64,000 bases of DNA, taken from contig NZ_JABMCJ010000088.1 in NCBI RefSeq assembly GCF_013359755.1, positions 1 to 64,000 on the forward strand, given 5' to 3'. The stretch is from Tardiphaga robiniae (GTDB taxonomy: Bacteria; Pseudomonadota; Alphaproteobacteria; Rhizobiales; Xanthobacteraceae). The translations under genes were made by a program, and so were the position numbers. A model generated the notes under the pieces. That model had not been told where the DNA came from. It ran no database searches and was given only the letters and a program-made list of their open reading frames with translations. Shown here piece after piece: positions 21,300 to 64,000 of the stretch. Each line of letters begins with the position of its first letter. The first letter of the stretch is position 1.

Positions 21300-22673
21300 C
21301 TATTGATAGGTCGCCACGATATCGGCGACGGCGCGCTCGAGTTGCTGCGCCGTCGCGCATTGGCGCACGACATTACAGAAGGTCGCGTAGCGCGGCATTT
21401 CGGAATCGCCGAAGCCCCAGCCCATCCGTCCTTCCGGATTGAGCCAGACCAGCCGCTTCGAACGCTCGCCGATGCGGCGCAAGATGTCGGCGCGCGGATC
21501 GAGATTGTTGCTGCGGGCATCGCCGAGCACAATGACCGTGGTCTGCGCCGTGATCGCGCTCATGAAACCCCTCTCGAAATCGACGAAGGAGCGACCATAG
21601 TCGGACGAGCCGTAGCCAACCGACGACATGATCTGCTTCATCGCCTCTTCAGGTTTGTTTTTCTCCAGGACTTCACTGACTTCGATCAGGTTGCCGGAAA
21701 AAGCGAAGGAGCGCACATCGGACACCACTTCATGCAGGCTGTGGATCAGCAACAGGAAGAAGTCGGAGACCTGCGCAACCGAGCCCGAGACATCGCAAAT
21801 AGCGACGATCTTCGGTTTGTCACGATGACGGCGCTTCCATGCCGTCATGAACGGCACGCCGCCCCATGCAGCATTGCGACGAATGGTGCGGCGGACATCG
21901 AGATGGCCACGGCGCTGGCGTTTGCGCGGCTTGCTGAAGCGCTCGCGCAGCCGCCGCGCGATCTGCCGGATCAGAACACGCATCTGCGCGATCTGGCGCT
22001 GCTCCAGCCGCGCCATCGGCGCATTGCGCAGGATCTCATTGCGCAGCGCCTCTTTCTCCTCGCGGCCATAGAGCAGCAGCGCCTGCGCGACCATTTCGCT
22101 GACGGTCTCGCGCAGGCTGCGGAGCGCCGTTGCAAGCCGTTCTGCATCTGCTGGATTGCGGGTCGTGAGCGCATCGATGTCGTCGCGCAGTTGCGCGATC
22201 CCGAGCTGCTCGAGCACCCGGCTGGCAAACAGCCCCCGCTGGGTGAAGACACGGATGTCGGTCAGGCCGGCGGCATTCGATGCGTTTGAAAGCGCCGCGG
22301 CAATGGCGGCGCGGTCCTGCGCCAGCAGCATCTGCGCGAGCGAACCGAGTTCGGTCGAAGCCTGTACCGACGCGGTGCCTGCCGCGGCGTCGGTCCCGCT
22401 CTCGCTTGCCCCCTCGCCAGTCTCGTCGTCGTCATTTGCCGCGGACGGCGCGTCGAAATCAGGATGGGTGAAGAACGTATCGAAACAGGCAGCAAGCGCC
22501 GCTTTCTCTTCGCCGGACTTCGCCATGGTCAGCAGCAGCGCATCGCGCAGGATCGCGCGATCGGCGGGGCCCACTTCAGCGGCGGCACGCATCGCATCGA
22601 TACTTTCGGCAGGCGAAATCCTGACACCGGCGCCCCGCGCCGCCCGAAAGAAGCGATGCAGCGTGTCGCGCAT
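21300..22673 (-). CDS. VWA-domain protein, CoxE-like
   Basis: A 457-residue protein with an N-terminal helical region (RFFRAARGAGVRISPAESID), an acidic linker around residues 95-110, and a C-terminal von Willebrand A domain with metal site AICDVSGSVAQVSDF (DxSxS). It belongs to the CoxE-like branch whose partners are MoxR-type ATPases; the partner gene lies immediately upstream (2-base gap). Such pairs help mature or insert metals into enzymes (for example CoxD/CoxE in CO dehydrogenase). No target enzyme is present nearby, so the client is unknown. Confidence 0.85.
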   Translation of the reverse strand: MRDTLHRFFRAARGAGVRISPAESIDAMRAAAEVGPADRAILRDALLLTMAKSGEEKAALAACFDTFFTHPDFDAPSAANDDDETGEGASESGTDAAAGTASVQASTELGSLAQMLLAQDRAAIAAALSNASNAAGLTDIRVFTQRGLFASRVLEQLGIAQLRDDIDALTTRNPADAERLATALRSLRETVSEMVAQALLLYGREEKEALRNEILRNAPMARLEQRQIAQMRVLIRQIARRLRERFSKPRKRQRRGHLDVRRTIRRNAAWGGVPFMTAWKRRHRDKPKIVAICDVSGSVAQVSDFFLLLIHSLHEVVSDVRSFAFSGNLIEVSEVLEKNKPEEAMKQIMSSVGYGSSDYGRSFVDFERGFMSAITAQTTVIVLGDARSNNLDPRADILRRIGERSKRLVWLNPEGRMGWGFGDSEMPRYATFCNVVRQCATAQQLERAVADIVATYQ

Positions 22674-50849: not shown

Positions 50850-51488
50850 TCAGCGGGGGTTGCGGAGTTGCCAAGTGTCTAAACTGTCAGGTTTGATCTC
50901 GAACCGATCTTGCATCCGTGCATACATGGTTCCCGCGATGCGTGCGACCGGAAGATAGTGATCATAGTCCGTACGCAAGGTGACGGGGTCGACAACACCA
51001 TCGCGAACCTGAATGCCCAGGACCTCTCCGACCAGTAGGTCGCGTTCTGCGCCAAAGTTCATCATTGTCACTTTTCGGCATTCCAGTGCCGCAGGCGCCT
51101 TCGCCAAATGCGGGACCGGCACATTGATGCCAGCCGTCATTGGGAGCTGCAGGGCATCCAGTTCACCGATGTCAGATGGAAAGCTGATCGAACAATCGAC
51201 CATATCGTTGGCGAGGGCCTCATCCACCATATTGATAACAAACAACCCATTGGCGCGCACATTGCGGGTCGTGTCCTTGACCGACAGGTCGGGCCTGGCC
51301 TGCAGGCCGACCACCACCAGCGGCGGCTTCTCGGAGAACACATTGAAGAACGAAAACGGCGCGGCATTGACCACACCAGCCTCGGAAATGGTTGTGATCA
51401 ACGCAATCGGTCGTGGGACAACGAGACCACAAAGCAACTTGTAGCGCTCCGGCGCGCTAAGCTTGGCGAAATCAAAGTGGATCGTCAT
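50850..51488 (-). CDS. Flavin reductase-like (FMN-binding split-barrel) protein
   Basis: A 212-residue protein of the flavin-reductase (DIM6/NTAB) family. The segment LVVPRPIALITTISEAGVVNAAPFSFFNVFSEKPPLVVVG (about residues 19-58) is the flavin-binding signature. Members give FMNH2 to a partner monooxygenase or act on quinone-like substrates. No monooxygenase is encoded in the cluster. The start at 51488 is chosen over 51524, which has no ribosome site. It is the last gene of the 50.8-63.2 kb operon. Confidence 0.82.
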   Translation of the reverse strand: MTIHFDFAKLSAPERYKLLCGLVVPRPIALITTISEAGVVNAAPFSFFNVFSEKPPLVVVGLQARPDLSVKDTTRNVRANGLFVINMVDEALANDMVDCSISFPSDIGELDALQLPMTAGINVPVPHLAKAPAALECRKVTMMNFGAERDLLVGEVLGIQVRDGVVDPVTLRTDYDHYLPVARIAGTMYARMQDRFEIKPDSLDTWQLRNPR

Positions 51489-51536
51489 CGCAGGTTTTGC
51501 CTCTTGTGCCGCACCTTGCCGCAACGAGGCAGGAGC

Positions 51537-52526
51537 TTATCCGATCTTGAGCAGCCGGCTCGCATTGCCGAACAGGACTTTCTGACGATCAGTGTCCGAT
51601 AGCTTGGCCTTGTTGACCAGCCCCACCGGGTCGGGGTCCCCCATGTCAAACGGGTAGTCCGAGCCCATCATGACGCGATCCACGCCCACCGTCTTGACGA
51701 GATTGTCGATCAGCTCCGCAGAGAACACGCAGGTGTCAAACCAGAGCCGCTTGAGATAGGTCGACGGCGCATCTGCCGTGAGCCGGCGTACTTCCGGACG
51801 CACCTTCCAGGCGTGATCCAGTCGGGCTGCGTAGAATGGGTAGAAACCACCGCCATGAGCGATAACCACGTCGAGATCCGGATGCCGGTCTAAAATGCCA
51901 CCCATGATGAAGTGGGCGATCGCAATCGTCTCTTCGATGGGCTGGCCGACGCTGTTGACCATGAAGAAATCGCCGAGCCGCTGGCCATGGGAGAAGCCCA
52001 GGGGATGCACGAACAGCGGTACGCGCAGATTGGTAAGCCGCGCATAGAGTGGATCGAAGGCGGCATGGGACAGTTCGAGGTTTTCGACGCGGGTATCGAT
52101 CTGGAATCCGCGCAGGCCGAGCTGCTCGACTGCATGAACCGCCTCCTCCACCGCACGCCCGGGAAACCGCATCGGCAGTGTACCCATCCCGGCGAAATGT
52201 GCAGGATCCTGCGCCACAAGCGCGGCAATGTCTTCGTTCTGCACGCGCGACAGCGCACATTGCAAATCTTCGTCGGCCCAGTAGTTCTGTTGCGCCGGTG
52301 CCGGCGCGATCACCTGAAAGTCGACGCCCATCTTCGCCATCATCTCGCGGCGCTTGGCGATGTCGAGCATCAAGCCCGGCAGCAGCTTGCCCTGCTCTGC
52401 ATCAGTTTCGCGGCTCGCGGGCGACATGTCGCGGCGATAGGGATTGTCCATCGGATCGTAGTGCCCGGCCACCAGCGGCTCGACGCGCTTGCTGAGGGCA
52501 TGGGTGTGCATATCGATGATGGGCAT
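51537..52526 (-). CDS. Amidohydrolase, ACMSD-like
   Basis: A 329-residue amidohydrolase-2 family protein. The DMHTHAL motif (HxH) is at residues 5-11, a His lies in FVHPLGF, and a second metal-site region in VIAHGGGFYPFYAARLDHAW is followed by MMGSDYPFDMG with the late Asp. The pattern is that of 2-amino-3-carboxymuconate semialdehyde decarboxylase and related ring-cleavage product decarboxylases. The reaction here could be decarboxylation or C-N hydrolysis. It lies 16 bases after the amidase. Confidence 0.85.
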   Translation of the reverse strand: MPIIDMHTHALSKRVEPLVAGHYDPMDNPYRRDMSPASRETDAEQGKLLPGLMLDIAKRREMMAKMGVDFQVIAPAPAQQNYWADEDLQCALSRVQNEDIAALVAQDPAHFAGMGTLPMRFPGRAVEEAVHAVEQLGLRGFQIDTRVENLELSHAAFDPLYARLTNLRVPLFVHPLGFSHGQRLGDFFMVNSVGQPIEETIAIAHFIMGGILDRHPDLDVVIAHGGGFYPFYAARLDHAWKVRPEVRRLTADAPSTYLKRLWFDTCVFSAELIDNLVKTVGVDRVMMGSDYPFDMGDPDPVGLVNKAKLSDTDRQKVLFGNASRLLKIG

Positions 52527-52542
52527 TCGGAATCTCTTTTTC

Positions 52543-53928
52543 CTAGTTCAGTTCGGCAGCGTCGGGGACGCGATGATGCCAGTCGGTCGCGCCCTGATAG
52601 GCGTGAGCGGCGCGCAGGATATCGGCCTCGGCATAGGGGCGGCCGACCAGCTGGAACGCGATCGGCAGACCTGCCGCATCGAAGCCGCACGGCACTGACG
52701 CTCCGGGTAGGCCGAGATAATTGATGCCGCGGGTGCAATGTGTGAGCTGGCCGATCACAGCAGCGACGTCGGCGGGGTTGCCTTCCGTGGTCGCCGCGAT
52801 GGTCGGTACCGGAATCGAGATCGCCGGCAGAAGCGCGAGATCGGTGGATCCGATGCAGGATGCGATCCATTGCTGGGTGATCTGCGCTCGCAGCGACAGC
52901 GCTTCCACATAACGTGTCGCCGGATAGAACAGGCCGGGCTCGATGCGCGAGCGCACCTGATCGGCATAATCCTGCGGTCGCTCGATCAGCCAGCGGCGAT
53001 GGATCGTCGCAGCCTCAACGCTCATGACGATCTGCATCAGCGCGTTGATCAAGGCCATGTCCGGCGGCGAGGTCTCGACGACGGTGGCGCCGAGCAACCG
53101 CAACACCTTCACAGCTTCGTCCAGCGCAGTCGCCACATCCGAATGCATGAGCTCGCGGTAGTATCCACCGGGAATTGCGATGCGCATCCCGGTCACACCC
53201 GTATCGAGCGTCGTTTCATAGTCGCGATCCGCGATCACCGACAGCAGTCGCGCGGCATCTCGTGCGGTGCGGGCCAGAGGTCCCGTGCAATCTAGTGAGG
53301 CAGATAGCGGCATCACACCATCAGTCGGAACCAGTCCCCAGGTCGGCTTCAACCCGATCAGGCCGCACATCGCGCCGGGATGGCGTAGTGAACCGCCAGT
53401 ATCCGTCCCGAGCGAGCCGGTCACGAGGCGCGCGGCGACGGCAACGCCGGAACCGGAGGACGAGCCGCCCGGCACATGCGCCGGATTCCACGGGTTGCTC
53501 GCATGCCCCAACGATTCGTTATAGCCCGTCGGACTCATGGCGAATTCAGCCAGTTGCAGCCGGCCGAGATCGAGCGCGCCGGCGGCATCGAGCCGGGCAA
53601 TCACCGTGGCTGTCACGTCAGCGCGAAAGTCAGCCCGGATTTTCGAGCCGCCACCGGACAGATCACCGACACGGTAGAAGAGGTCTTTATGTGCAAGGGG
53701 CACGCCATGCAGTACCGGCAATGCCCCCCCCGATGCGCGCAACTTGTCGGCGGCTTCGGCCGCATCCAGCGCCCGTTCGTCGTCAAGCCGCACCACCGCA
53801 TTCAATTTGCGGCCGATCAGATCGAGCCGTTCCAGCGCCACCGTTGTCGCCTTCACGGACGTGACTTCGCCTTTAGCAACAGCATCCGCGAGAGCGCAGA
53901 GATCAAGGGCTGCGATTGCGCTCTGCAT
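52543..53928 (-). CDS. Amidase (amidase-signature family), AtzE/HpxW-like
   Basis: A 461-residue amidase. The Ser-cisSer-Lys triad is visible: Lys81 (PLAHKDLFYR), the cis-Ser in GGSSSGSGVAV (about residues 154-164) and nucleophile Ser180 (DTGGSLRHPG). It hydrolyses an amide or carbamoyl bond. Its start overlaps the stop of the small gene upstream (ATGA), which looks like the GatC/AtzG small partner, so a two-subunit enzyme is likely. The substrate is not known. Confidence 0.85.
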   Translation of the reverse strand: MQSAIAALDLCALADAVAKGEVTSVKATTVALERLDLIGRKLNAVVRLDDERALDAAEAADKLRASGGALPVLHGVPLAHKDLFYRVGDLSGGGSKIRADFRADVTATVIARLDAAGALDLGRLQLAEFAMSPTGYNESLGHASNPWNPAHVPGGSSSGSGVAVAARLVTGSLGTDTGGSLRHPGAMCGLIGLKPTWGLVPTDGVMPLSASLDCTGPLARTARDAARLLSVIADRDYETTLDTGVTGMRIAIPGGYYRELMHSDVATALDEAVKVLRLLGATVVETSPPDMALINALMQIVMSVEAATIHRRWLIERPQDYADQVRSRIEPGLFYPATRYVEALSLRAQITQQWIASCIGSTDLALLPAISIPVPTIAATTEGNPADVAAVIGQLTHCTRGINYLGLPGASVPCGFDAAGLPIAFQLVGRPYAEADILRAAHAYQGATDWHHRVPDAAELN

Positions 53929-54122
53929 CAGCGCTTGTCCATGCCAGCGAGCCACGCCTGATAGGCGTAGGGCGTCGAATCGAACGCCATGTCTTGTACA
54001 GCCGCAGTTGCGACGCGCGTGTTGTTTTCCACGACCAGCCCCGTCATGCGCGGTGTGCGTTCAGCGGCGCCGGGCGCCTTGTTCAATTCGGCGGCTACTT
54101 GGCGCAGCAAATTTTCGCTCAT
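53928..54122 (-). CDS. GatC/AtzG-like small amidase partner
   Basis: A 64-residue protein. The pattern LVVENNTRVATAAVQDMAF followed by D-STPYAY is like that of AtzG and HpxX (V-x-N-x-x-R, then AA and F-D-x-x-P), the short helical partners of AtzE-type amidases. Its ATG has an AGGTG ribosome site, and its stop overlaps the amidase start. Recognition is by pattern only, so the assignment is moderate. Confidence 0.6.
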   Translation of the reverse strand: MSENLLRQVAAELNKAPGAAERTPRMTGLVVENNTRVATAAVQDMAFDSTPYAYQAWLAGMDKR

Positions 54123-54129
54123 GATCACC

Positions 54130-54834
54130 TCAATGCACGCCGAGGCGCTGGAACAGCACATCAGTCTGCTGGTTCATTTCCTGCGACGTGCCGTGATGCA
54201 CGATCTGCCCGGTTTCCATAATGTAGACGCGATCGGCGACGGCCAGCGCGCTATAGAGATTCTGCTCGACCAGCAGGATCGACAACCCTTCCTTTTTAAG
54301 ATCGAGAATGATGCTTTCGAGGTGCTGCACCATCACCGGCGCGAGGCCTTCGGACGGCTCGTCCATTAGAATCAGTTCGGGGTCGATCATCAGCGCACGG
54401 CCCACAGCCAGCATGCCGCGCTCACCACCAGACAATTGGCCACCGCGGTGATAGCGGCGCTCAGCAAGCCGCGGGAAAATGCCGAATACGCGATCGAGCG
54501 TCCAGCCGTCCTTGGCGCGCGCGCTCTTCAGCATGGTCAGATGCTCGGTCACCGTCAGCGACGGAAACAGCCGCCGCCCCTGCGGCACGATCGCAATCTT
54601 GCGATTGGCGATATCATGGGGACGCAGACCAATAAGGCTATCGCTGCGCCAGGTAATCGTGCCCGAGCGCACCTGCGGCGGCGTCAGGCCCATGATCGAG
54701 CGAATGAAGGTGGTCTTGCCCATGCCATTGCGGCCGAGCAGCGCCACGATCTCGCCAGGGCGCACCTCAAGCGACGCACCGCGCACCACGACCGCGTCGC
54801 CGTAACCGCTGTGCAGATCCTTGACCTCAAGCAT
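54130..54834 (-). CDS. livF: Branched-chain-type ABC transporter ATP-binding protein LivF
   Basis: A 234-residue ABC ATPase. Walker A is LLGRNGMGKTT (residues 32-42), the signature is LSGGERGMLAVGRALM, and Walker B is ELILMDEPSEGLAP. The style (short, with the SEGLAP loop) is LivF. It pairs with LivG (8-base overlap) to power the LivHM permease. In this operon the substrate is probably not an amino acid but the compound degraded by the neighbouring hydrolases. Confidence 0.92.
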   Translation of the reverse strand: MLEVKDLHSGYGDAVVVRGASLEVRPGEIVALLGRNGMGKTTFIRSIMGLTPPQVRSGTITWRSDSLIGLRPHDIANRKIAIVPQGRRLFPSLTVTEHLTMLKSARAKDGWTLDRVFGIFPRLAERRYHRGGQLSGGERGMLAVGRALMIDPELILMDEPSEGLAPVMVQHLESIILDLKKEGLSILLVEQNLYSALAVADRVYIMETGQIVHHGTSQEMNQQTDVLFQRLGVH

Positions 54835-55582
54835 GACGCGGCTTCCCGAGATAGACTTCCTGAACCTGCTTGTTGCGGCGGATGCCTTCCGGCGGCTCCT
54901 CCACCAGCACGCGGCCTTCGAACATGCAGGTGACGTAGTCGACCAGACCGAGTGCCAGATCCATGTCGTGTTCGATCAGGATCACGGTGATCGCCGGATC
55001 GAGCGAACGGATCACCTCGGCAATCATCGAGCGCTCCGACGGCGACAGGCCGGCCGCGGGCTCATCCAGTAGCAACATGGTCGGCGTCGTCACCAGCGCA
55101 ATCGCGATTTCGAGCTGACGCTGCTCGCCATAGGACATTTCCTTGACGATGATGTCCGCGCGTTCGGCAATCCGTGCGGCATTCAGCGCGGCCGCGATAC
55201 GTGTAACCTCGCTATCGTCCGGATCGGGCGAACCGAACAGCGAAAACTTCTTCGGCTTCAATCCACGCAGCGCCAGCATCATGTTGTCCTGTACGCTCAG
55301 CGTTGGGAACAGGTTGGTGATCTGGAAGGTACGCGAGATGCCGAGCTGCGCACGCCGGTGTGGCGGCAGCCTGGACACGTCGTGCCCATTGAACCTGATC
55401 TTGCCCAATGTCGGCGGATGCGCGCCGGCGATGGCATTGAATAATGTGGTCTTGCCGGCGCCATTGGGGCCTATGATGGCGCGGCGCTGGCCCCGTGGCA
55501 CAATCAGGCTGACGCCATCGACGGCCCGCAAGGCATCGAAGGCCACCACCACATCTGTCAGCGTCAGGATCGGTTCGGACAC
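54827..55582 (-). CDS. livG: Branched-chain-type ABC transporter ATP-binding protein LivG
   Basis: A 251-residue ABC ATPase of LivG type. Walker A is IIGPNGAGKTTLFN (residues 36-49), the C-loop is EMSYGEQRQLEIAIAL, and Walker B is TMLLLDEPAAGLSP. The GTG start at 55582 (VSEPILTLTD) is preferred over the longer form to 55639, which begins in an Arg-rich extension. Its stop overlaps the livF start. Confidence 0.9.
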   Translation of the reverse strand: MSEPILTLTDVVVAFDALRAVDGVSLIVPRGQRRAIIGPNGAGKTTLFNAIAGAHPPTLGKIRFNGHDVSRLPPHRRAQLGISRTFQITNLFPTLSVQDNMMLALRGLKPKKFSLFGSPDPDDSEVTRIAAALNAARIAERADIIVKEMSYGEQRQLEIAIALVTTPTMLLLDEPAAGLSPSERSMIAEVIRSLDPAITVILIEHDMDLALGLVDYVTCMFEGRVLVEEPPEGIRRNKQVQEVYLGKPRHA

Positions 55583-55646
55583 GAATAATTCCCAGTGAAC
55601 GAGAGACGCGGCGACACGGCCGCGCCTCGATGTCAGCAATATTGAA

Positions 55647-56906
55647 TCAGGTCTTCTTGATGCCCTGGAAGGTCCGCGAGTAAGGCGGCTGCTTCAGATA
55701 GGTCGCCGGATCGTACTTCCAGAATTGCGAGACATTCGGATAGGTCTCGATCGGCACGTTCCAGTATTTGCCATCGGCGCGCTTGACGACCTTGCGAATG
55801 TAGACGTCGTAGATCGGGTTGCCGTAGTCGTCGAACTTCACGGTCTTGCCGAGCGGCGAATTGTCGAGCTCGGTCTTCAGTACCGTATCGATAAAGGTTT
55901 CGCGGTCCTCGACCTTGCCGCCCATCTTCTTCAGTGCGGCATCGATCCACATCATGCCGGAATACATCGAGAAACCGTAGAGCGACGGGATCTTGCCGTA
56001 CTTCGCCTCATAATCCTTCTCGAACTTTGCCGTGGTCGGGACGTCCGAACCTTCGGCGAAATGTGCCGCTGCGATGATGCCTTCGCATTCGGGGCCCATG
56101 GTGCGGATCACCGACTGGTCGGTGCCATTCATCGCCATCAACAGCGGCGTCTTTTCCTTCAGGCCGAAGGACGCGTATTGCTGGATCAGACGCGTCGAAT
56201 CAGCACCGGTTTCCATCGCGAAGATGGCATCGACCTTGAGATCGGCGAGCTGGCCGAGATAGGGGCTGAAGTCGGCGGTGTTCAGCGGATGCCAGAACTG
56301 CTGCACGATCTGCCCGCCCCCTTCGGTGAACACCTGGGCGAGACCGCCGCACTGTTCGTGGCCGAAGGTGTAATCCTGGCTGATGGTGGCGATCTTCTTG
56401 TAGCCCTGCTTCAGGGCCCAATCACCGAACGGATGGGTGAAGGCGCTGGCAGAATAGCCGGCGACGCGGATTACGTTCTTGATGCGGGCGCGCTGGGTGA
56501 GATCGTCAGCCGCGATAATCGGAATGAAGTAGGGCGTGCCGGTGCCCTTAACGTAGTTGGCGACAGCAAGGCCGGTATTGGCGAGCAGATTGCCGATCAA
56601 CATGTGGCAATTGCCCTGCTCGACCAGGCGGCGCGCTTTCTGCAGAGCGGTGTCGGGATTCGACGCATCGTCCTCAATCACCAGCTCGACCTTACGGCCG
56701 CCCATCTCGTTCTTCACCTGATCGAGATAGAACTGCACGCCCTCGACCATTTCCTTGCCGCCCGACGCGACAACGCCGGTCAGCGGCGCCAGCAGACCGA
56801 TCTTGATCGGGCTTGCCTGAGCCTGAGCCGAGCGCCACGGAGCGGCGCCAACGCCCGCGGCAGCGACGGCCGCCGTAGTGTTCTTGAGAAATTGCCTGCG
56901 ATCCAT
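55647..56906 (-). CDS. livK: Periplasmic solute-binding protein of Liv type
   Basis: A 419-residue ABC substrate-binding protein (type I periplasmic fold, LivK-like). The N-terminus DRRQFLKNTTAAVAAAG is a Tat-type signal (RRxFLK). The mature part has PIKIGLLAPLTGVVASGGKEMVEG and the VELVIEDDASNPDTALQ motif. It delivers the solute to LivHM. Tat export suggests it may fold with a ligand or early. The ligand is unknown; relatives bind amides, urea, aromatic acids and branched-chain amino acids. Confidence 0.87.
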   Translation of the reverse strand: MDRRQFLKNTTAAVAAAGVGAAPWRSAQAQASPIKIGLLAPLTGVVASGGKEMVEGVQFYLDQVKNEMGGRKVELVIEDDASNPDTALQKARRLVEQGNCHMLIGNLLANTGLAVANYVKGTGTPYFIPIIAADDLTQRARIKNVIRVAGYSASAFTHPFGDWALKQGYKKIATISQDYTFGHEQCGGLAQVFTEGGGQIVQQFWHPLNTADFSPYLGQLADLKVDAIFAMETGADSTRLIQQYASFGLKEKTPLLMAMNGTDQSVIRTMGPECEGIIAAAHFAEGSDVPTTAKFEKDYEAKYGKIPSLYGFSMYSGMMWIDAALKKMGGKVEDRETFIDTVLKTELDNSPLGKTVKFDDYGNPIYDVYIRKVVKRADGKYWNVPIETYPNVSQFWKYDPATYLKQPPYSRTFQGIKKT

Positions 56907-56951
56907 CTCGAAGTCCTTTCGTGAGCAACCCGATTGAAACGTGAAACCGAC

Positions 56952-57914
56952 TTATCGCACCTTGCGCGAGGTGATCGCGCGCAGCTTGCCTATGATGCCC
57001 TCGGGGGCGAAGATCATGATGAGAACGAATGTGATGCCGAGAACCATCAGCCAGCGTTCGGTGTAGGAACTGACGATGTTCTCCAGCACGATGATCGCAG
57101 CTGCGCCGACAAAGGCGCCGAACAGTGTGCCGACACCGCCCGCGATCATCATCAACACACCCTCCACCGATTGCGCGAGCGCGACGGTCGAAGGGCTGAC
57201 GAAATTGTTGAACATCGCGTAGAGGCCCCCGGCGATACCGGCGAAGATGCCGGACACCGTAAAACCGATGAACAGATGCAGCGGCACATTGTAACCGAGG
57301 CTGCGCATGCGACTTTCGCTATCGCGGATACCGCGCAGCGTCAGGCCGAACGGCGATCGCACGAACCGCCACATGGCAAAAGATACAATGACGGCGCCAG
57401 CGAGCACCGCCCAATAGAACGCGCTGTGGCTCATCAGGGCCGCCGGCCGCACATCGGCGCGCATGCCATTCTCGCCGCCGGTGACCTGCGTCCAGCGCAG
57501 GCAGACGCCCCACACGATCATGCCGAGCGCAAGCGTCAGCAGCAGGAAATAGACGCCGGAGGTGCGCACGGCGAGCAGCGCAAATATCGAGGCCACCGCG
57601 GTCGCCGCCAGCACACCGAGCGCGAAGCCCGCCCAGGGCGACAGACCGGCCTGGCCGGTCGCATAAACGACGACATAGGTCGAGACACCGAAGATGGCAC
57701 CATGCCCGAGGGAAGTCCGGCCGGCAAAGCCGGCGAGAATGTCGATCGACATGGCAAGGACTCCGAAGATCAACACTTCGGTGGCGAGGCCGACCTGATA
57801 GCTCGACAGCACCATCGGCAGGCAGGCAGCGACGATCACCACCAGCCCGGTAATGACGAGCGCACGGCTGGTCATGCCGGCGAGAACTGACGTTTTGGAC
57901 ACGGGCTGCGTCAT
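56952..57914 (-). CDS. livM: Branched-chain-type ABC permease LivM
   Basis: A 320-residue inner-membrane permease with about nine membrane segments. The EMF/LivM features VYATGQAGLSPWAGFALGV, RTSLGHGAIFGVSTYVVVYA and MIAGGVGTLFGAFVGAA are present. It pairs with LivH; the ATG overlaps the livH stop (ATGA). Confidence 0.9.
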   Translation of the reverse strand: MTQPVSKTSVLAGMTSRALVITGLVVIVAACLPMVLSSYQVGLATEVLIFGVLAMSIDILAGFAGRTSLGHGAIFGVSTYVVVYATGQAGLSPWAGFALGVLAATAVASIFALLAVRTSGVYFLLLTLALGMIVWGVCLRWTQVTGGENGMRADVRPAALMSHSAFYWAVLAGAVIVSFAMWRFVRSPFGLTLRGIRDSESRMRSLGYNVPLHLFIGFTVSGIFAGIAGGLYAMFNNFVSPSTVALAQSVEGVLMMIAGGVGTLFGAFVGAAAIIVLENIVSSYTERWLMVLGITFVLIMIFAPEGIIGKLRAITSRKVR

Positions 57915-58762
57915 GTGGCACGTCCGAACAGGCCGAGCGGACGGAATGCGAGCAACACCGCCATCGGGCCGAAGATCACGAAATAAGCGAGTTCGGGGAA
58001 CATCACCTGGCCGAGCGTATTCAGAAGCCCGACCAGCAGGCTACCGACACCGACGCCGACGAGGCTGCCACGCCCACCGATGATGACGACGGCGAGACTG
58101 AAGGTGAGGATTTCCGCGTCCGCCGACGGATAGAGCGACAGGAACGCACCTCCCATCAGGCCGCCAAGGCCGGCCAATGCCGAGCCGAACAGGAAGGTGA
58201 AGAGGAAGACGCGGCGGATATTGACGCCGGACGCTTCGACCATCTCTGCATCGTCCACGCCAGCGCGGATCAGCGCGCCGAGCCTTGTATGATTGAGCAG
58301 CACCCACAGGCCGATGAAGACGAAGATGCCCATCCCCAGCACAAACAACCGGTAGATCGGATAGAAGGTGCCGAACACCCGCGTGCCGCCGCGCAACATC
58401 TCCGGAATCGGCACCGTGAAACTGTCGCCGCCCCAGATCACCAGCGCGAGATCGTTGAGGAAAAAGGCAACGCCGAGCGTCAGCAGCACCTGCCGCAGCT
58501 CATTGCCGCGTACGAAGCGGAGCAATCCCTGATCAAGCACGAAGCCGATGGCCGCGATCGCCGCCATGGCGCCGATACCACCGACGACAAAGCTGCCGGT
58601 CTTCACCGCAACGCTATAGCCGATATAGCCGCCGAACAGATACAGCGCGCCATGCGCGAGATTGACGATACGCAGCAGACCGAAGATCAGCGTGAAGCCG
58701 CTCGCCACCACGAACAGCAGCGCGGCGAAGGTCAGGCCGTTGAGGAGTTGAAAGAGACTCAT
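57911..58762 (-). CDS. livH: Branched-chain-type ABC permease LivH
   Basis: A 283-residue permease with about eight membrane segments (FAALLFVVASGFTLIFGLLRIVNLAHGALY and LAVVIIGGRGSLVGVGVGSL are LivH motifs). It follows the NodB-fold hydrolase gene after a 19-base gap and leads the transporter set livH-M-K-G-F. Confidence 0.9.
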   Translation of the reverse strand: MSLFQLLNGLTFAALLFVVASGFTLIFGLLRIVNLAHGALYLFGGYIGYSVAVKTGSFVVGGIGAMAAIAAIGFVLDQGLLRFVRGNELRQVLLTLGVAFFLNDLALVIWGGDSFTVPIPEMLRGGTRVFGTFYPIYRLFVLGMGIFVFIGLWVLLNHTRLGALIRAGVDDAEMVEASGVNIRRVFLFTFLFGSALAGLGGLMGGAFLSLYPSADAEILTFSLAVVIIGGRGSLVGVGVGSLLVGLLNTLGQVMFPELAYFVIFGPMAVLLAFRPLGLFGRAT

Positions 58763-58781
58763 GCCCTTCTGCTTGCCTGAT

Positions 58782-59666
58782 CTATGCTGCTGGCGCTTTC
58801 GGTCCGACCGAAAGATACCAATCGAGAATCTGTTCGCCGGTCATGAAGGCCACGTCGGATTTCTTCTGGATGGTCTCGAAGATTCGGCGGAAATACTTCA
58901 GGCGATGCGGCGCGCCCATGATGTAGGGATGCACAACCAATGCCATGACCCGGGCCGAATTCTCGGAATCCTCGTAAATCTGCTCGAACTGGTCGATGGC
59001 CCGGTCGTAATATTCCGACGCCTTGTGATGCTGGATCAGCATCATCGCGACGTCATTGCATTCCTGCGTATAGGGCACGTTGACGATCGGTGTCGTCGTG
59101 GTCTTGAGCCACACCGGCTGATCGTCGAGTACCCAGTCGGCGACGTAGTCATAGCCTTCCTGTTTCAGCAGGTCCGGCGTTTCCCAGGTCTCGGTCAGAC
59201 CCGGCCCGAGCCAACCGCGCGGCCGCTTGCCAGTGGCCTTCTCGATTACGTCGGCAGTCTTGCGGATATCCTCGCGTTCGTTCTCAACCTTCTGCATATT
59301 GCGCTGGGTGAAACCGTGACCCATGAATTCCCAGTTGCGCGCCTTGGCTGCCTCGACGATGGGCGGGTAAGCGGCGATTGCCGAGCCATTGATCGCCAGC
59401 GCGGCGGGGAGCTTGTAGTCGTCGAACACTTTCAGCATGCGCCAGAAGCCGACACGATTGCCGTATTCGTGCCAGGCCCAGTTCGGAACGTCCGGCGACG
59501 GCGAGCCGCCGGCCGGCGGTGTCAGCACCGTGCGCGGCATCGGCTGCTTGGCGTCCCATTCCTCGACATTGACGATGATCCACACTGCCATGCGCTTGCC
59601 ATTCGGCAGCTTCAGTGGTGGACGAGCGTCAATCGGCGAGTAGGAAATGCGTTCGGTCGGCAACAT
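58782..59666 (-). CDS. NodB-fold hydrolase (PuuE/imidase-like), copy A
   Basis: A 294-residue polysaccharide-deacetylase-superfamily enzyme. The fold motifs are NVEEWDAKQPMPRTV near residue 33 (metal Asp region), GHGFTQ and LGPGLTETWETP, with a His in VVHPYIMG. This arrangement resembles PuuE allantoinase and bacterial cyclic-imide hydrolases more than sugar deacetylases. It is likely to open a cyclic amide. It is a paralogue of copy B (60373-61257): GKRPRGWLGPGLTETWETP here and GKRPVGWLGPGLTQTLETP there. It is the fifth gene of the operon. Confidence 0.82.
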   Translation of the reverse strand: MLPTERISYSPIDARPPLKLPNGKRMAVWIIVNVEEWDAKQPMPRTVLTPPAGGSPSPDVPNWAWHEYGNRVGFWRMLKVFDDYKLPAALAINGSAIAAYPPIVEAAKARNWEFMGHGFTQRNMQKVENEREDIRKTADVIEKATGKRPRGWLGPGLTETWETPDLLKQEGYDYVADWVLDDQPVWLKTTTTPIVNVPYTQECNDVAMMLIQHHKASEYYDRAIDQFEQIYEDSENSARVMALVVHPYIMGAPHRLKYFRRIFETIQKKSDVAFMTGEQILDWYLSVGPKAPAA

Positions 59667-59668
59667 GA

Positions 59669-60376
59669 TCAGGTCTCCGGCTCAACGATGGTAATGCCGA
59701 GCGACGGCAGGCCTTCGATCCGCGCGTCGATAACGTCGCCCGGAACGACGGGACCCACGCCGGCAGGCGTGCCCGTATAGATGAGATCGCCCGGCTCGAG
59801 CTTCATCTGCTTCGACAGCTGCGCCACGATCTCCGGCACGCTCCAGATCATCTGGCCGATATCGCCGCGCTGCTTCTCGACGCCGTTCACCGACAGCGTG
59901 ATCGCGCAATTGTTGAAATGCCGGGCATCGCGTGCCGGCGCAATTTCGCCACAAGGCGCGGACGCGTCGAAGCTTTTGCCCATTTCCCAAGGCAGTCGCA
60001 TATCGCGGGCATCGCGCTGGCGGTCGCGACGGGTGAGATCGATGCCGACGGCATAACCCCAGATATAATCGAGCGCATCCTCCACCGCGATATCGCGGCC
60101 GCCGCGTCCGATCGCCAGCACCAGCTCAACCTCGAACTGGAAGTCCTCGGTGAAAGCCGGATAAGGCACGCGCGCGCCGTCCGGCACCACGCTGTCGCGC
60201 GGCTTCTGGAAGAAGAACGGCGGATCGCGCTCGTCGGCTTCCTTCATCTCGCGGATGTGGTCGAGATAGTTGCGCCCCACGCAATAGACGCGGCGTACAG
60301 GGAAAAAACCGCCCCCCACGACCGGCACGCCGGTGACGGGAATTGCTGGCAGCATCTGCTGGGACGTCACACTCAC
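59669..60376 (-). CDS. Fumarylacetoacetate hydrolase family protein
   Basis: A 235-residue FAH-family enzyme. RVYCVGRNYLDHIREM, FEVELVLAIGR (metal Glu pair) and VGIDLTRRDRQRDARD (metal Asp) are the family signature. FAH enzymes cleave C-C bonds of 1,3-dicarbonyl ring-cleavage products or decarboxylate oxo acids. The GTG start at 60376 has AGGTGG seven bases before it, and GTGA overlaps the stop of the copy B hydrolase; the ATG at 60355 has none. The gene lies between the two NodB-fold paralogues. Confidence 0.88.
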   Translation of the reverse strand: MSVTSQQMLPAIPVTGVPVVGGGFFPVRRVYCVGRNYLDHIREMKEADERDPPFFFQKPRDSVVPDGARVPYPAFTEDFQFEVELVLAIGRGGRDIAVEDALDYIWGYAVGIDLTRRDRQRDARDMRLPWEMGKSFDASAPCGEIAPARDARHFNNCAITLSVNGVEKQRGDIGQMIWSVPEIVAQLSKQMKLEPGDLIYTGTPAGVGPVVPGDVIDARIEGLPSLGITIVEPET

Positions 60377-61257
60377 TTCGCCACCTGGGTATTGTGCCAA
60401 TCGAGGATCTGGGCGCCATTCCAATGCACCACGCCTTCGAACTGGTTCACGTAGTCATAGATCGCTTCGAGATATTTGATGCGGAACGGCTGACCCGAAA
60501 TATAAGGGTGGATCGCAATCGACATGATCTTCGGCCGCTCGGCGCTTTCAGCATAGAGGCGATCAAACTGATCCTTGGCACGGTTCAGGAGCTGCGTGCT
60601 CTCATGATGTTGCACCATCATCATCGGGATGTCGTTCATCTCCACCGTGTAAGGCAGCGTTGTGAGCGGCCCCTTCTCGGTACGGATCACGGTTGGTTCG
60701 TCGTCATAGACCCAGTCACCGATATATTTCACGCCGGCTTCGGCGAGGAATTCCGGGGTCTCCAGCGTCTGCGTAAGACCCGGCCCGAGCCAGCCCACCG
60801 GGCGCTTGCCGGTGAAGTTCTCGATCACATCCATCGAGCGGTTGATCATCGCTTTCTGGTCGGCCTCCTTGTGGATGGGCCCCTGCTCATAGGCATGGCC
60901 CATGAACTCCCAGCCGGCGTCCTTCGCCTGCTGAGCCACGCGTGGATAATCCTCGCAGACGCGCGCATTGATCGACAGCGTCGGCTTGATGCCGAGCTTC
61001 TTGTAGAGATCGAAGAAACGCCAGACACCGACACGCATGCCGTATTCGTGCCAGCCCCAATTGGCGACATCGGGCAGCAGCGGAATGCCGGTCGGCGCCG
61101 GCAGCACCTGACGCGCCATCGGCTTGGCAATGTCCCAGACCTCTAGATTGACGATGGTCCAGATGATCATGCGGGCATTGCCCGGCAGCTTCAGCTTGGG
61201 ACGATCGACGATGGCGGAATAGTCGCAACGCTCGCGCGGCTGCATGGGACCGGTCAT
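60373..61257 (-). CDS. NodB-fold hydrolase (PuuE/imidase-like), copy B
   Basis: A 294-residue enzyme with the same layout as copy A. NLEVWDIAKPMARQV (metal Asp region), MGHAYEQ and AIHPYISGQ (His) are present, with GWLGPGLTQTLETPEFL. The high similarity to copy A shows duplication, and the FAH gene between them argues that both copies act in one pathway, perhaps on two cyclic intermediates or as a heteromer. The start at 61257 is the first natural ATG; a longer form to 61326 is not favoured. Confidence 0.82.
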   Translation of the reverse strand: MTGPMQPRERCDYSAIVDRPKLKLPGNARMIIWTIVNLEVWDIAKPMARQVLPAPTGIPLLPDVANWGWHEYGMRVGVWRFFDLYKKLGIKPTLSINARVCEDYPRVAQQAKDAGWEFMGHAYEQGPIHKEADQKAMINRSMDVIENFTGKRPVGWLGPGLTQTLETPEFLAEAGVKYIGDWVYDDEPTVIRTEKGPLTTLPYTVEMNDIPMMMVQHHESTQLLNRAKDQFDRLYAESAERPKIMSIAIHPYISGQPFRIKYLEAIYDYVNQFEGVVHWNGAQILDWHNTQVAK

Positions 61258-61294
61258 GGCTGGATGCCCTTCGAAAGTGGGAAGTTGTATGGGA

Positions 61295-61942
61295 TCATGC
61301 GGCGCGTCCTGCACCCTTGAGGCCATCGAGCTGCATCACGGCATCGGTATCCATCACGAAACCGAAGGCGGTGCGGATGCAGGCGAGGCCGGCGGCATGC
61401 AACTCCGGCCCGTCCATGCTGTCGACGCAATCCTCGACGACGATCACCGAGTAGTCCCGCACATTGGCAGCCGTCGTCGTCGCCAGCACACAGGAATTGG
61501 TGTTTACGCCGGTGACGAGCAGCGTGTTGATGCCGTGCGAACGCAACACGAAATCGAGATCGGTGCCCAAGAAGCAATCGTAGCGCTTCTTGGTGTTGAC
61601 GATGAAGTCGCTGGGGTCCAGCAGCTCCGGCATCACGGTGCAGCCGGGGCCGCCCATGATATTGTGCCGCATCACATTCTTGCGCGTTGCTTTTGGATCC
61701 TCGGCGCGGGTCCGCCAGAACGGATTGGCGCGGATCTCGGCCTCGTCGCGATAGGACGTGACCTGGTGGATCACGGGAATGCCGACACTACGGCACCAGT
61801 CGAACAGCCGCTTATTGGCAGCGATCACCGTCTTCGCGACATCCGGCGTGGTCGGCATGGTCGCCACCGACATGTCCAGATGACCGCGATGCAGGTCGAT
61901 CGCGACAACGGCAGCCTTGATCTGATCGACACCAAAATTCAT
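61295..61942 (-). CDS. Isochorismatase-family amidohydrolase
   Basis: A 215-residue cysteine hydrolase. The catalytic Asp lies in VVAIDLHRGHLD, Lys in VNTKKRYDCFLGTDL and Cys in GVNTNSCVLATTTAANVRDY, with the cis-peptide region before it. Relatives hydrolyse N-carbamoyl compounds, ureidoacrylate, maleamate, nicotinamide or biuret. In this operon it may release ammonia or carbamate from the opened ring product. It lies 2 bases from the alpha/beta hydrolase gene upstream. Confidence 0.85.
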   Translation of the reverse strand: MNFGVDQIKAAVVAIDLHRGHLDMSVATMPTTPDVAKTVIAANKRLFDWCRSVGIPVIHQVTSYRDEAEIRANPFWRTRAEDPKATRKNVMRHNIMGGPGCTVMPELLDPSDFIVNTKKRYDCFLGTDLDFVLRSHGINTLLVTGVNTNSCVLATTTAANVRDYSVIVVEDCVDSMDGPELHAAGLACIRTAFGFVMDTDAVMQLDGLKGAGRAA

Positions 61943-61944
61943 GA

Positions 61945-63186
61945 TCACACCAGCGGGTTGAACGAAGTTTTCAGCAGAGTGCGCTGATCGATCTTGAATT
62001 TGTCGGCGAGCCAGTCGGCCAACACTTCCTGTCCAATGGTGGGATTGTCGTGCTGGCAATGTTCGGCGCCGGTCTCGTCCGGCTCAAGCACGCGCAATGT
62101 CGCATCAACACCATTGGCAATCGCATGGTCATAGGTCGAGCGCGCCGCGGTCACCGTGAGCACGTCGTGGCCGCCATGCAGCACGAGATACGGACACTTC
62201 ATGTGTTCGAGATGGCCCTTCAGCGTAAAGGGCTTCATCAGCTCATGAGCTTCCTTCATGGTCTTGGCGCCAAATACCCAGCGGATATGCATCGCCAGAC
62301 CGAAGTCGTCGCCCTTCTGGCCCCACATGTCATGCACCGACCAGACAGCCCCGTGCGAGATCACCGCCGCGAGGCGATGCTCGTAACAGCCGGCGCGCGC
62401 GGCGTAGTAACCGCCCATGCTGGAGCCGCAGACCGCGATGCGCGAGCTATCGACATCGGCGCGCTTTTCGAGCCAGTCGACACATTTGCCGACCGGCACT
62501 TCCGTATCGGCGCGGGTTGCAAGTCCGTGGCGGCGCAAGGTACCGCCCTGCCCGGGCAGATCGACCATCAGCACCGAGATGCCGCGCTGCAGGCAACCAT
62601 GGGCCTGCATGAACCACATCTCGTCCTTGATGGAGTCGAGACCGCCCATGCAGATCAGCACCGGCAGCTTGTCTCCAGGAAATGGCGCACGGATGAAGTA
62701 GCCGCAGATCGGCTTGCCCGGCTCATAAGGGATTTCGACCACTTCGCCGGGCGGATTGAGATAGGAAATGAACTTATGCGAGCAGGCTTCCATCTTCTCG
62801 AAGGTCGGCAGCCGTCGCGGATCGGTCGGCTCGAGATGAAATTCGGCTTGGCGGTAATAATCGGCAGCCCGCAGGAAACAGTTCATCGCCGTGCGGATGT
62901 GGCCGAGCTTTTCTTCGGAAAGGCCGCGCTGCCAGTTGGCATCCGCGATCACCATCCACTCTTTATGCCAGCTTTCGAGGTCGCCCGGGATCATCCGCGA
63001 ACCGGCCAGCATCACCTCGGACACGCTGCCGCCGCCCTCCTGGGTCTCACCGAGACCGCGGCGGAATTGATAGGCAAGCCAGGGATGCTCCGGCCAGTGA
63101 TGCCAGCCAAACGGCTCATAGTGCGGGGTGCGATCCGCCGTGATCTCCTCGATGGCGTTTTCGCCGATCGACTTCCCTGCCGCCAT
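61945..63186 (-). CDS. Alpha/beta hydrolase, FrsA/DHPON-hydrolase-like
   Basis: A 413-residue protein. An N-terminal helical part (about residues 40-140) is followed by an alpha/beta-hydrolase domain with nucleophile elbow CGSSMGG (GxSxG), Asp in HGGHDVL and His in GAEHCQHDN. The layout is that of 2,6-dihydroxypseudooxynicotine hydrolase and FrsA-type proteins, which cleave C-C bonds. It is the first gene of the operon, with a 227-base gap to the divergent GntR gene. Confidence 0.83.
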   Translation of the reverse strand: MAAGKSIGENAIEEITADRTPHYEPFGWHHWPEHPWLAYQFRRGLGETQEGGGSVSEVMLAGSRMIPGDLESWHKEWMVIADANWQRGLSEEKLGHIRTAMNCFLRAADYYRQAEFHLEPTDPRRLPTFEKMEACSHKFISYLNPPGEVVEIPYEPGKPICGYFIRAPFPGDKLPVLICMGGLDSIKDEMWFMQAHGCLQRGISVLMVDLPGQGGTLRRHGLATRADTEVPVGKCVDWLEKRADVDSSRIAVCGSSMGGYYAARAGCYEHRLAAVISHGAVWSVHDMWGQKGDDFGLAMHIRWVFGAKTMKEAHELMKPFTLKGHLEHMKCPYLVLHGGHDVLTVTAARSTYDHAIANGVDATLRVLEPDETGAEHCQHDNPTIGQEVLADWLADKFKIDQRTLLKTSFNPLV

Positions 63187-63380: not shown

Positions 63381-63396
63381 GAATTGTATTCACTTT
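63381..63396. promoter_or_regulatory. Candidate GntR operator, regulator side
   Basis: GAATTGTATTCACTTT contains the perfect inverted repeat GAAT-TGT-ATTC and repeats the site at 63255 in the same orientation, 126 bases away (12 helical turns). It lies just before the regulator's ribosome site. Confidence 0.45.
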
Positions 63397-63413
63397 GCTG
63401 CGGAGCACCACCG

Positions 63414-64000
63414 ATGCCCGACCCATCCCCCTTGCCGCCGCCTGAAGCTGGCGGCCCCGGCCGCGCCGCTAACCGGTCGCTATCGGTGACGGATCAGATC
63501 CGCGACGCCATTCTGGATGGCACGGTCAGCGCAGGCGAACGGATCAACGAAGTTCGTTTCAGCAAGACGCTGGAGGTCTCGCGGACCCCCGTCCGGGCCG
63601 CCTTGCAGGCACTGGCCGGCGAAGGGCTGCTCGACTACGCCCCCAATCGCGGCTTCACCGTCCGTGAATTCCCGCTCTCGGCCATCGTCGATGCTTATGA
63701 AATTCGCGCATCGCTGGAAGGCGTGGCCGCACGCTTCGCCGCCGAACGTGGACTGAGCGCCGAGGAGCGCGCCATCATCGAGGAAAGCCTTGTCGCCGGC
63801 GATAAACTGCTGGCGCGCGGTGAGTTTGCGGAAGGCGATCTCACCATCTATCGCGGCATCAATGGCGACTTCCACGACACCCTGCTGGGCGCCGCCCGTA
63901 ACCGCATGCTGGCGGAGATGATCCGGATTTGCCACCACGTGCCGATGTCATCGAGCCGCAATATCGTCGCCTTCGAGCATCGCGACGTACGCCGGCGTCA
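63414..64000 (+). CDS. GntR family regulator, FadR/FCD type (cut by window end)
   Basis: The first 195 residues of an open frame that runs off the right edge. After a Pro-rich start comes the GntR winged helix (LSVTDQIRDAILDGTVSAGERINE, TLEVSRTPVRAALQALAGEGLL and DYAPNRGFTVREF), then a helical FCD-type effector domain with a metal-site His in NGDFHDTLLGAA. It is divergent from the operon starting at 63186 and the natural candidate for its regulator, with an organic acid as probable inducer. The start is the ATG at 63414 after CGGAGCACCACCG. Confidence 0.88.
   Translation, partial: MPDPSPLPPPEAGGPGRAANRSLSVTDQIRDAILDGTVSAGERINEVRFSKTLEVSRTPVRAALQALAGEGLLDYAPNRGFTVREFPLSAIVDAYEIRASLEGVAARFAAERGLSAEERAIIEESLVAGDKLLARGEFAEGDLTIYRGINGDFHDTLLGAARNRMLAEMIRICHHVPMSSSRNIVAFEHRDVRRR

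Follow-up and report, generated by a model that had tools for sequence, protein, structure and literature searches.

The 64,000-nucleotide stretch of Tardiphaga robiniae DNA analyzed here (the window; contig NZ_JABMCJ010000088.1, positions 1 to 64,000) carries a contiguous run of 14 minus-strand genes, from position 63186 down to 50850, that forms a genuine catabolic operon of known enzyme families, both conserved and under specific regulation. It cannot be put down to chance because its order is kept in distant relatives. We consider it probable, at roughly 60%, that this GntR-controlled operon serves the catabolism of an N-heteroaromatic or cyclic-imide carboxylic acid. The gene set is conserved, a common operator motif lies in front of it, its enzymes retain their catalytic residues, and accessory genes are swapped in and out of it in a modular fashion. 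In favor of the proposed substrate class we count the conservation of order, the motif, the catalytic residues, the likeness of two NodB-fold hydrolases to the allantoinase PuuE, a molybdenum hydroxylase encoded in relatives, clusters that combine NodB-fold and asparaginase genes, the matches of the LivK-type binding protein, and a paralogous locus around a second alpha/beta hydrolase.

Organization of the operon

The 14 genes, listed from abH downwards, the regulator and the candidate operator are as follows (aa, amino acids; E values from Pfam or Protein Data Bank (PDB) searches):

61945..63186, minus strand: abH, alpha/beta hydrolase, 413 aa; PDB entry 2jbw, E 1.1e-24, distant relative of 2,6-dihydroxypseudooxynicotine (DHPON) hydrolase
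61295..61942, minus strand: iso, isochorismatase-fold amidohydrolase, 215 aa; PF00857, E 9e-34
60373..61257, minus strand: nodB1, PuuE-like NodB-fold hydrolase, 294 aa; 3cl6 (PuuE allantoinase), E 2.1e-26
59669..60370, minus strand: FAH-family protein, 233 aa, GTG start; PF01557, E 1.3e-62
58782..59666, minus strand: nodB2, second PuuE-like NodB-fold hydrolase, 294 aa; 44% identical to nodB1 in the alignment
57911..58762, minus strand: LivH-type permease; PF02653 (BPD_transp_2), E 1.9e-33
56952..57914, minus strand: LivM-type permease; PF02653 (BPD_transp_2), E 6.5e-35
55647..56906, minus strand: LivK-type binding protein, 419 aa, with a twin-arginine translocation (Tat)-type signal; Peripla_BP_6 and PDB matches
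54827..55582, minus strand: LivG ATPase, GTG start; PF00005, E 2e-32
54130..54834, minus strand: LivF ATPase; PF00005, E 3.9e-27
53928..54122, minus strand: small 64-aa protein encoded directly before the amidase, at the place of AtzG/GatC; three predicted helices
52543..53928, minus strand: amidase-signature hydrolase, 461 aa; PF01425, E 5.7e-89
51537..52526, minus strand: ACMSD-like metal-dependent decarboxylase (predicted), 329 aa; ACMSD 4igm, E 7.1e-50
50850..51488, minus strand: NbaA-like flavin protein (Flavin_Reduct), 212 aa; 2-nitrobenzoate nitroreductase 4z85, E 1.3e-38
63384..64000, plus strand: GntR-family regulator with FCD domain, running beyond the window end to contig position 64163; Pfam GntR and FCD above cut-off
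63385..63392, no strand assigned: candidate GntR operator, TGTATTCA on the plus strand, a palindrome of the TGTATNCA/TGNATACA class

From abH downwards the genes are spaced by 2, 37, 2, 2, 19, −4, 45, 64, −8, 7, −1, 16 and 48 bases, such that LivH and LivM overlap by 4 bases, LivG and LivF by 8 and the small gene and the amidase gene by 1, while three gaps measure 2 bases. Gene starts were picked among alternatives, those of nodB1, FAH, LivG and the flavin protein being the least certain. An initial annotation of this DNA, made from the letters alone, had described 14 minus-strand genes between 63186 and 50850 with gaps of 65 bases or less and many four-base overlaps; the layout proved correct, the largest gap being 64 bases, but only the LivH/LivM overlap measures 4 bases. 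Assignment of the 14 proteins through Pfam, NCBIfam and PDB searches likewise bore out the families named there (alpha/beta hydrolase, isochorismatase fold, two NodB-fold hydrolases, FAH, LivHMKGF, amidase, ACMSD-like and flavin-reductase-like proteins). Genes that we name by eye below are unverified unless backed by Pfam or a similarity search. A promoter and terminator scan was uninformative, with matches at most one standard deviation from shuffled sequences.

Conservation among relatives

An abH alignment was scanned against a genome collection of 84,980 species and yielded 304 pattern matches; relatives were encoded by 180 of these, and the best 80 were kept. With abH as the search query it is found in all loci, and the synteny counts are conditional on it. 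Downstream genes were counted at 56 of the 80 loci, the 24 with less than 9.5 kb after abH being left out; the stored loci stop 10 kb downstream, and the last genes are under-counted. Gene names in relatives denote best tblastn matches, some of which (nodB1, nodB2 and ACMSD, at 34 to 55% identity) are perhaps not orthologues. Twenty of the 80 loci, picked by hand, were extended further.

With identities down to 66%, the best 80 of the 180 abH relatives range from Bradyrhizobium, Azorhizobium and Aquabacter to Limnohabitans, Polynucleobacter, Ramlibacter and Alcaligenaceae, and the operon-bearing loci span Alpha- and Betaproteobacteria. The nearest named relatives, Bradyrhizobium sp. NFR13, Tardiphaga robiniae and Tardiphaga sp. 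P9-11, share 99% identity in abH. A search of 385 genomes of the same class gave 13 abH matches at E <= 1e-60, of which the gene's own scored 873 bits and the 12 others at most 268 bits; we have taken the latter as paralogues.

In the same-strand run after abH, LivHMKGF was present in 46 of the 56 loci, nodB1 in 42, iso in 41 and nodB2 in 35, with at least one NodB gene in 47; FAH and the amidase were each found in 30 and ACMSD in 17. The synteny that the initial annotation had suggested looking for thus reaches distant members of both classes, and the commonest arrangement (6/56) is the order of the window as far as ACMSD. Within the same taxonomic order, small genomes of 1.0 to 1.6 Mb (loci L022–L024, L026, L027, L029) retain a nodB1 homologue that is 48–49% identical. 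Pairwise distances among abH, iso, nodB1, LivH, LivK and LivF correlate at 0.61 to 0.93 over 40 of the 80 loci, as shared species history could also bring about.

Other genes come and go as modules. The same-strand run includes an HpaI aldolase in 16 of the 56 loci, OsmC in 9 and a molybdenum hydroxylase small subunit in 7; the HpaI and OsmC genes mostly lie between iso and nodB1, and the source genome (6.3 Mb, 94 contigs) held no HpaI homologue at E <= 1e-15. FAH occurs without nodB2 in four of the 56 loci (L065, L067, L107, L109). These abH and FAH loci also carry a gene for an SsuC-type ATP-binding cassette (ABC) transporter and an acetamidase/formamidase, recognized by Pfam in L067 and by similarity or by eye in the others.

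The regulator and its candidate operator

The initial annotation had placed a divergent GntR regulator next to the operon, and this protein indeed carries GntR and FCD domains above the Pfam cut-off. It could start at TTG 63384 or ATG 63414, the latter probably being the true start because the candidate operator sits at 63385–63392. By eye, the 909-aa protein encoded after the regulator is GGDEF/EAL-like.

A GntR match is divergent from and adjacent to abH in 44 of the 80 homologous loci, 73 of which have at least 1.2 kb of sequence upstream. The motif sample consisted of these 44 loci, with a divergent GntR match of more than 40% identity within 700 bases. The k-mers common to the abH/GntR intergenic regions center on TGTATACA, TGGATACA and TGAATACA, and an initial count found the motif in 33 of 45 regions, that of the window among them. 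With the regions extended 60 bases into the regulator match, TGTATNCA or its complement was present in 39 of 44, of which 24 hold at least two copies, and missing from five. First-order simulations (500 runs) averaged 1.3 such regions and never exceeded 6, and control stretches inside the operon contained it in 1/44, 0/39 and 1/36 cases. The enrichment is strong but post hoc, the motif having been picked from the same sequences in which it was counted.

Import and hydrolysis

Residue conservation was scored over matches that spanned 80% or more of the window protein at more than 35% identity (30% for ACMSD), the window protein included. By this measure, the catalytic residues of six operon enzymes are almost invariant among relatives. 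Central to the proposed chemistry are the two NodB-fold proteins. PuuE (3cl6) gave the best E value among five PDB matches for nodB1, which is nearer to PuuE than to classical deacetylases in that search and has the PuuE-type motif; in a profile with a typed PuuE row, the Glu-x3-His motif of both NodB proteins aligns with that of PuuE. Glu117 of NodB1 is kept in 58 of 59 sequences (one Asp) and His121 and His250 in all 59, while NodB2 retains His117 and His246 in 43/43 and Glu113 in 41/43 (two Asp). From these features we propose that NodB1 may be a ring-opening cyclic imide or amide hydrolase.

For abH, PF06500 (FrsA/DHPON type) scored 44.3 bits against a cut-off of 22, and the triad Ser256, Asp341, His376 is kept in 81 of 81 aligned sequences; the protein is a proposed C–C or acyl hydrolase. 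The isochorismatase-fold protein is a putative amide or ureide hydrolase, in which Lys118 and Cys151 are kept in 58/58 and Asp16 in 57/58 sequences (one gap); its scores against the NCBIfam equivalogs BiuH (77.3 bits, cut-off 370) and RutB (67.5 bits, cut-off 377.95) are both below the cut-offs. The FAH protein, also below all NCBIfam cut-offs listed, might act as a C–C hydrolase, decarboxylase or lyase on a ring-opened acid. With its Ser-cisSer-Lys triad (Lys81, Ser157, Ser180) present in 26/26 sequences, the amidase is a candidate half-amide hydrolase; its NCBIfam scores (PRK07056 274 bits, AtzE 271 and 257.7, GatA 236) all lie below the cut-offs, those of AtzE being 461 for NF006631 (271 bits) and 425.75 for TIGR02715 (257.7 bits). 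The ACMSD-like protein belongs by family to the ACMSD-type decarboxylases, and decarboxylase activity is predicted for it: H174, H224 and D290 are found in 17/17 sequences and H7 and H9 in 16/17 with one gap, and these HxH, H, H and D residues we take to be metal ligands.

The LivK-type protein has a Tat-type signal by TIGR01409, which was above cut-off, with Pfam's own model below. Its PDB matches were led by 4zpj (1e-52), 4ey3 (1.3e-45) and 4evq (5e-40), the latter two reportedly from a study of Rhodopseudomonas aromatic-acid binding proteins. The LivJ-type leucine binder 1z15 followed at 1.2e-7, and between them stood 3i09 and 3td9, named merely as branched-chain amino acid binding (E 1e-23 to 1e-21).

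Two genes of the set call for a different view from that of the initial annotation. The small gene had been called a partner of the amidase. A small frame precedes the amidase in 15/15 alphaproteobacterial and 1/15 betaproteobacterial loci examined, the other 14 betaproteobacterial loci having merely 18 to 63 bases in its place, and an alignment of 16 sequences showed D48 and P51 to be invariant. A partner role found no support: the protein had no Pfam match at E <= 0.01; it was missed in a PF13318 (AtzG-like) search of its own genome, which gave one match above cut-off, on contig C7, plus two weak matches in other places; an hhalign comparison with a single AtzG-like protein, the genome's own, yielded a probability of 0.1; and Foldseek with the 64-aa model (pLDDT 81, pTM 0.39) found no match at E <= 0.001. 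On these four tests the assignment as AtzG was not accepted, and the small gene is AtzG-like in position only. The flavin-protein gene had been included in the common set; it is present in just 2 of the 20 extended loci (Bradyrhizobium sp. NFR13 and Tardiphaga robiniae), its GC content (0.565) and third-position GC content (GC3; 0.671) are the lowest of the set, and for these reasons it looks like a lineage-specific 3' addition rather than part of the core.

Elsewhere in the window, a tRNA-Met gene (cat; 21789–21881, minus strand) is the sole tRNA gene found. A role in anti-phage defense was considered and rejected, PADLOC giving no match among the eight proteins scanned.

A proposed pathway

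We infer each reaction, the order of reactions and the substrate class, as follows. LivHMKGF would import the compound, whose ring would be converted to an imide or lactam. An operon-encoded molybdenum hydroxylase would do this in several of the betaproteobacterial relatives; in the source genome another enzyme would oxidize the ring, or the compound would arrive already oxygenated. NodB1 and/or NodB2 would open the ring hydrolytically to a half-amide, from which the amidase and the isochorismatase-fold enzyme may release ammonia (or carbamate). The ACMSD-like enzyme would decarboxylate the product, and abH and FAH, with the HpaI aldolase in other versions of the operon, might cut the carbon skeleton for central metabolism.

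Relatives offer a possible answer for the ring-oxidizing step, for which the initial annotation had found an oxygenase missing, correctly so for the operon of the window. A two-subunit molybdenum hydroxylase is encoded on the operon strand in 5 of the 20 extended loci (L157, L163, L164, L165, L166), all betaproteobacterial, after the ACMSD gene in four and between the amidase and ACMSD genes in L157; in L163 a further NodB gene follows it. L158 and L159 have a three-subunit molybdenum hydroxylase and a TRAP transporter downstream of abH. Pfam recognized MoCoBD and 2Fe-2S domains in L164, and the large and FAD subunits in L159. The operon strand of 10 of the 20 extended loci also encodes ACMSD. 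An asparaginase gene lies near NodB in L163 and L049, and L177, an annotated Mesorhizobium plasmid locus, combines NodB and asparaginase in one cluster, which fits a conversion from imide via half-amide to diacid. In each of the plasmid records with relatives the best place is less than 60% identical, and the annotated neighbors name no substrate. Genes for FAH, NodB, MFS, TauE/SafE and amidohydrolase proteins stand together on a Variovorax plasmid (L178) and a Streptomyces plasmid (L179). A paralogous abH-like hydrolase is encoded 74 kb from the operon (L183:9400-10623 and L184, on the same contig C1, ~137–150 kb). Its neighbors include Liv-type permease and binding-protein genes (Pfam) and a molybdenum hydroxylase. 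Genes for a dihydroorotase-like amidohydrolase and a Rieske-type protein were recognized nearby by eye.

Several observations weigh against the proposed substrate and route. Each of FAH, HpaI, ACMSD, the amidase, iso and the two NodB genes is absent from some loci, and the betaproteobacterial ACMSD-like proteins are just 37–41% identical; one fixed chemistry for all loci is therefore not certain. Thirteen of the 20 extended loci lack a same-strand molybdenum hydroxylase downstream of abH, L152 having one on the opposite strand. The operon of the window has none either (a MoCoBD_1 search of the genome gave 15 matches, none in the operon), and the genome holds no close homologue of the betaproteobacterial large subunit, the best being 29% identical, although given the 15 MoCoBD_1 matches the missing homologue proves little either way. 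Finally, none of the operon enzymes reached an NCBIfam equivalog cut-off, and no reaction is therefore assigned by orthology. Of the initial reading, according to which the operon imports and dismantles an amide-, imide- or N-heterocycle-type compound, one part has stood, a single conserved operon that has an importer and a regulator of its own and consists mostly of hydrolase families, in keeping with such a compound, whereas the small partner, the flavin gene and the four-base overlaps had to be corrected.

When a pyridine carries a hydroxyl group on each side of its nitrogen, it is tautomeric with a cyclic imide, and a molybdenum hydroxylase together with a NodB hydrolase could therefore open such a ring without a ring-cleaving oxygenase. 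This leads to a broader suggestion, which we put forward tentatively and with the odds rather against it: aerobic bacteria may mineralize N-heteroaromatic acids without a ring-opening oxygenase, a molybdenum hydroxylase producing the imide tautomer and PuuE-type hydrolases opening it, in convergence with the fungal hydrolase HxnM and in common between soil rhizobia-like bacteria and freshwater plankton. HxnS, which acts in the same fungal pathway, is a molybdenum hydroxylase. The operon, found in some Bradyrhizobium, Tardiphaga, Azorhizobium, Limnohabitans and Polynucleobacter genomes, points to a blank in what is known of how dissolved organic nitrogen is turned over in soil and lakes. It provides a concrete, testable list of enzymes that would help to assign function to proteins labeled 'polysaccharide deacetylase'. 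It could also reveal that bacteria use the hydrolytic opening of imide-type rings as a route for N-heteroaromatics.

Alternative explanations

The main rival is a ureide-type substrate, that is, a ureide or pyrimidine/purine-type pathway acting on an N-C(=O)-N ring, to which we give perhaps one chance in five. The NodB proteins would then be allantoinase- or hydantoinase-like, iso and the amidase would, in the manner of BiuH, RutB and AtzE, cleave ureido or carbamoyl groups, and the FAH protein would stand for a ureidoglycolate-lyase-like enzyme. Such a pathway is in line with the best NCBIfam matches of iso (biuret hydrolase and RutB), with the PuuE matches of NodB and in part with AtzE for the amidase, as well as with the relatives' molybdenum hydroxylase, which belongs to the xanthine dehydrogenase superfamily, and with the acetamidase/formamidase (PF03069) of the abH–FAH locus L067 and the similar genes of L065, L107 and L109. 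All of these family scores are far below the cut-offs, however; an AtzD/TrzD-family gene is located elsewhere in the genome, with an amidase-like frame nearby and two more NodB-fold genes ~11 kb away, and ACMSD and a relative of C–C hydrolases are not known to have a place in ureide routes.

Less probable still is a pyridine or other aromatic substrate with a side chain. By analogy with DHPON hydrolase in nicotine breakdown, abH would cut the side chain off a 2,6-dihydroxypyridine-like ring before NodB opens this ring, an imide tautomer. DHPON hydrolase is the best solved relative of abH, with the triad kept, and the molybdenum hydroxylase of relatives would suit this scheme as well. The kinship is distant, though, and the fold family has members named for other reactions; moreover, no nicotine-type genes were recognized by eye in the loci inspected, a result obtained without a search aimed at them.

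That the genes form a loose amide-scavenging island serving separate substrates appears very unlikely. Several of them are individually dispensable across loci, as such an island would predict, but distant relatives retain the order, the strand and the operator motif; the correlated distances of six genes over 40 loci point the same way, to the extent that they exceed what species relatedness alone could give.

We rejected the notion that the NodB proteins are true polysaccharide or peptidoglycan deacetylases in an operon modifying cell-wall sugars, which is suggested by the Pfam name Polysacc_deac_1 and is barely credible in view of the best E value of PuuE among the nodB1 matches, the PuuE-type Glu/His motif and the catabolic neighbors with their importer.

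Comparison with known systems

The initial annotation knew of no described pathway with this list of genes, and our searches of open-access PMC text showed none. Individual parts of the operon nonetheless resemble known systems. The nba pathway of 2-nitrobenzoate comprises the reductase NbaA and an ACMSD-type decarboxylase, and our operon has NbaA-like and ACMSD-like proteins side by side at its 3' end; unlike in the nba genes, no ring dioxygenase is encoded among the 14, and the NbaA-like gene is confined to the two extended loci named above. The bacterial nicotinate route NicAB/NicCDXEF uses molybdenum hydroxylase and amidase steps, a ring-cleaving dioxygenase and a ring monooxygenase. It shares with the operon the amidase and, through the operon's relatives, the molybdenum hydroxylase, but the 14 genes (the relatives' loci were not searched for this) include neither a ring-cleaving dioxygenase nor a ring monooxygenase.

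With 2,6-dihydroxypseudooxynicotine hydrolase (2jbw), abH shares homology and the Ser-Asp-His triad. The two are distant, and the N-terminal motif GWHxWPxxPWxxYQFRRxLGETQEGGG of abH (6/6 aligned) lies outside the stretch matched.

The AtzDGEHF cyanuric acid operon and the atzG-atzE-atzH clusters (PMC6219798) likewise place a small gene just upstream of an amidase gene and a transporter in the cluster. Our operon differs in having no AtzD or AtzH among its 14 genes and a small gene unmatched to AtzG. The sole AtzD-family gene found in the genome is on contig C2 (PF09663, 482 bits). At this locus (L187, contig C2:115500-135400) two adjacent NodB-fold genes lie ~11 kb from the AtzD/TrzD-family gene; an amidase and ABC transporters of the NMT1 and BMP types were recognized there by eye. 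Separately from the operon, an AtzG-like gene (PF13318, 61.7 bits) adjoins an amidase-like frame on contig C7 near 21247 (L180).

PuuE has been described as a deacetylase-family protein whose cavity is reduced and whose substrate is small and cyclic (PMC3084791). NodB1 and NodB2 have its family and its Glu/His motif; they differ in scoring 112.6 and 135.4 bits, respectively, both below the cut-off of 424.6 of the PuuE equivalog TIGR03212, and in lying among 14 genes none of which belongs to a known purine route.

A parallel to the proposed pathway is the fungal hxn pathway of nicotinate use in Aspergillus nidulans. The operon departs from it in being bacterial, in adding an ABC importer, a second NodB, iso, abH, FAH and ACMSD, and in having none of its 14 genes in a monooxygenase, alkene reductase or dehydrogenase family. 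HxnM is reportedly a cyclic imide hydrolase of the same kind as PuuE and our NodB proteins. According to its published description, HxnM shares 64.2% identity with a cyclic imide hydrolase homologue of P. putida and is structurally like HpPgdA, whose closest characterized relative is PuuE; it is proposed to open 3-hydroxypiperidine-2,6-dione, whereupon the amidase HxnN cleaves the half-amide (PMC9304392). The parallel would extend over three steps: the N-heterocycle is hydroxylated first (by HxnS), a cyclic imide hydrolase likened to the HpPgdA/PuuE fold finally opens the ring, and the resulting half-amide is cleaved by an amide hydrolase likened to FAAH.

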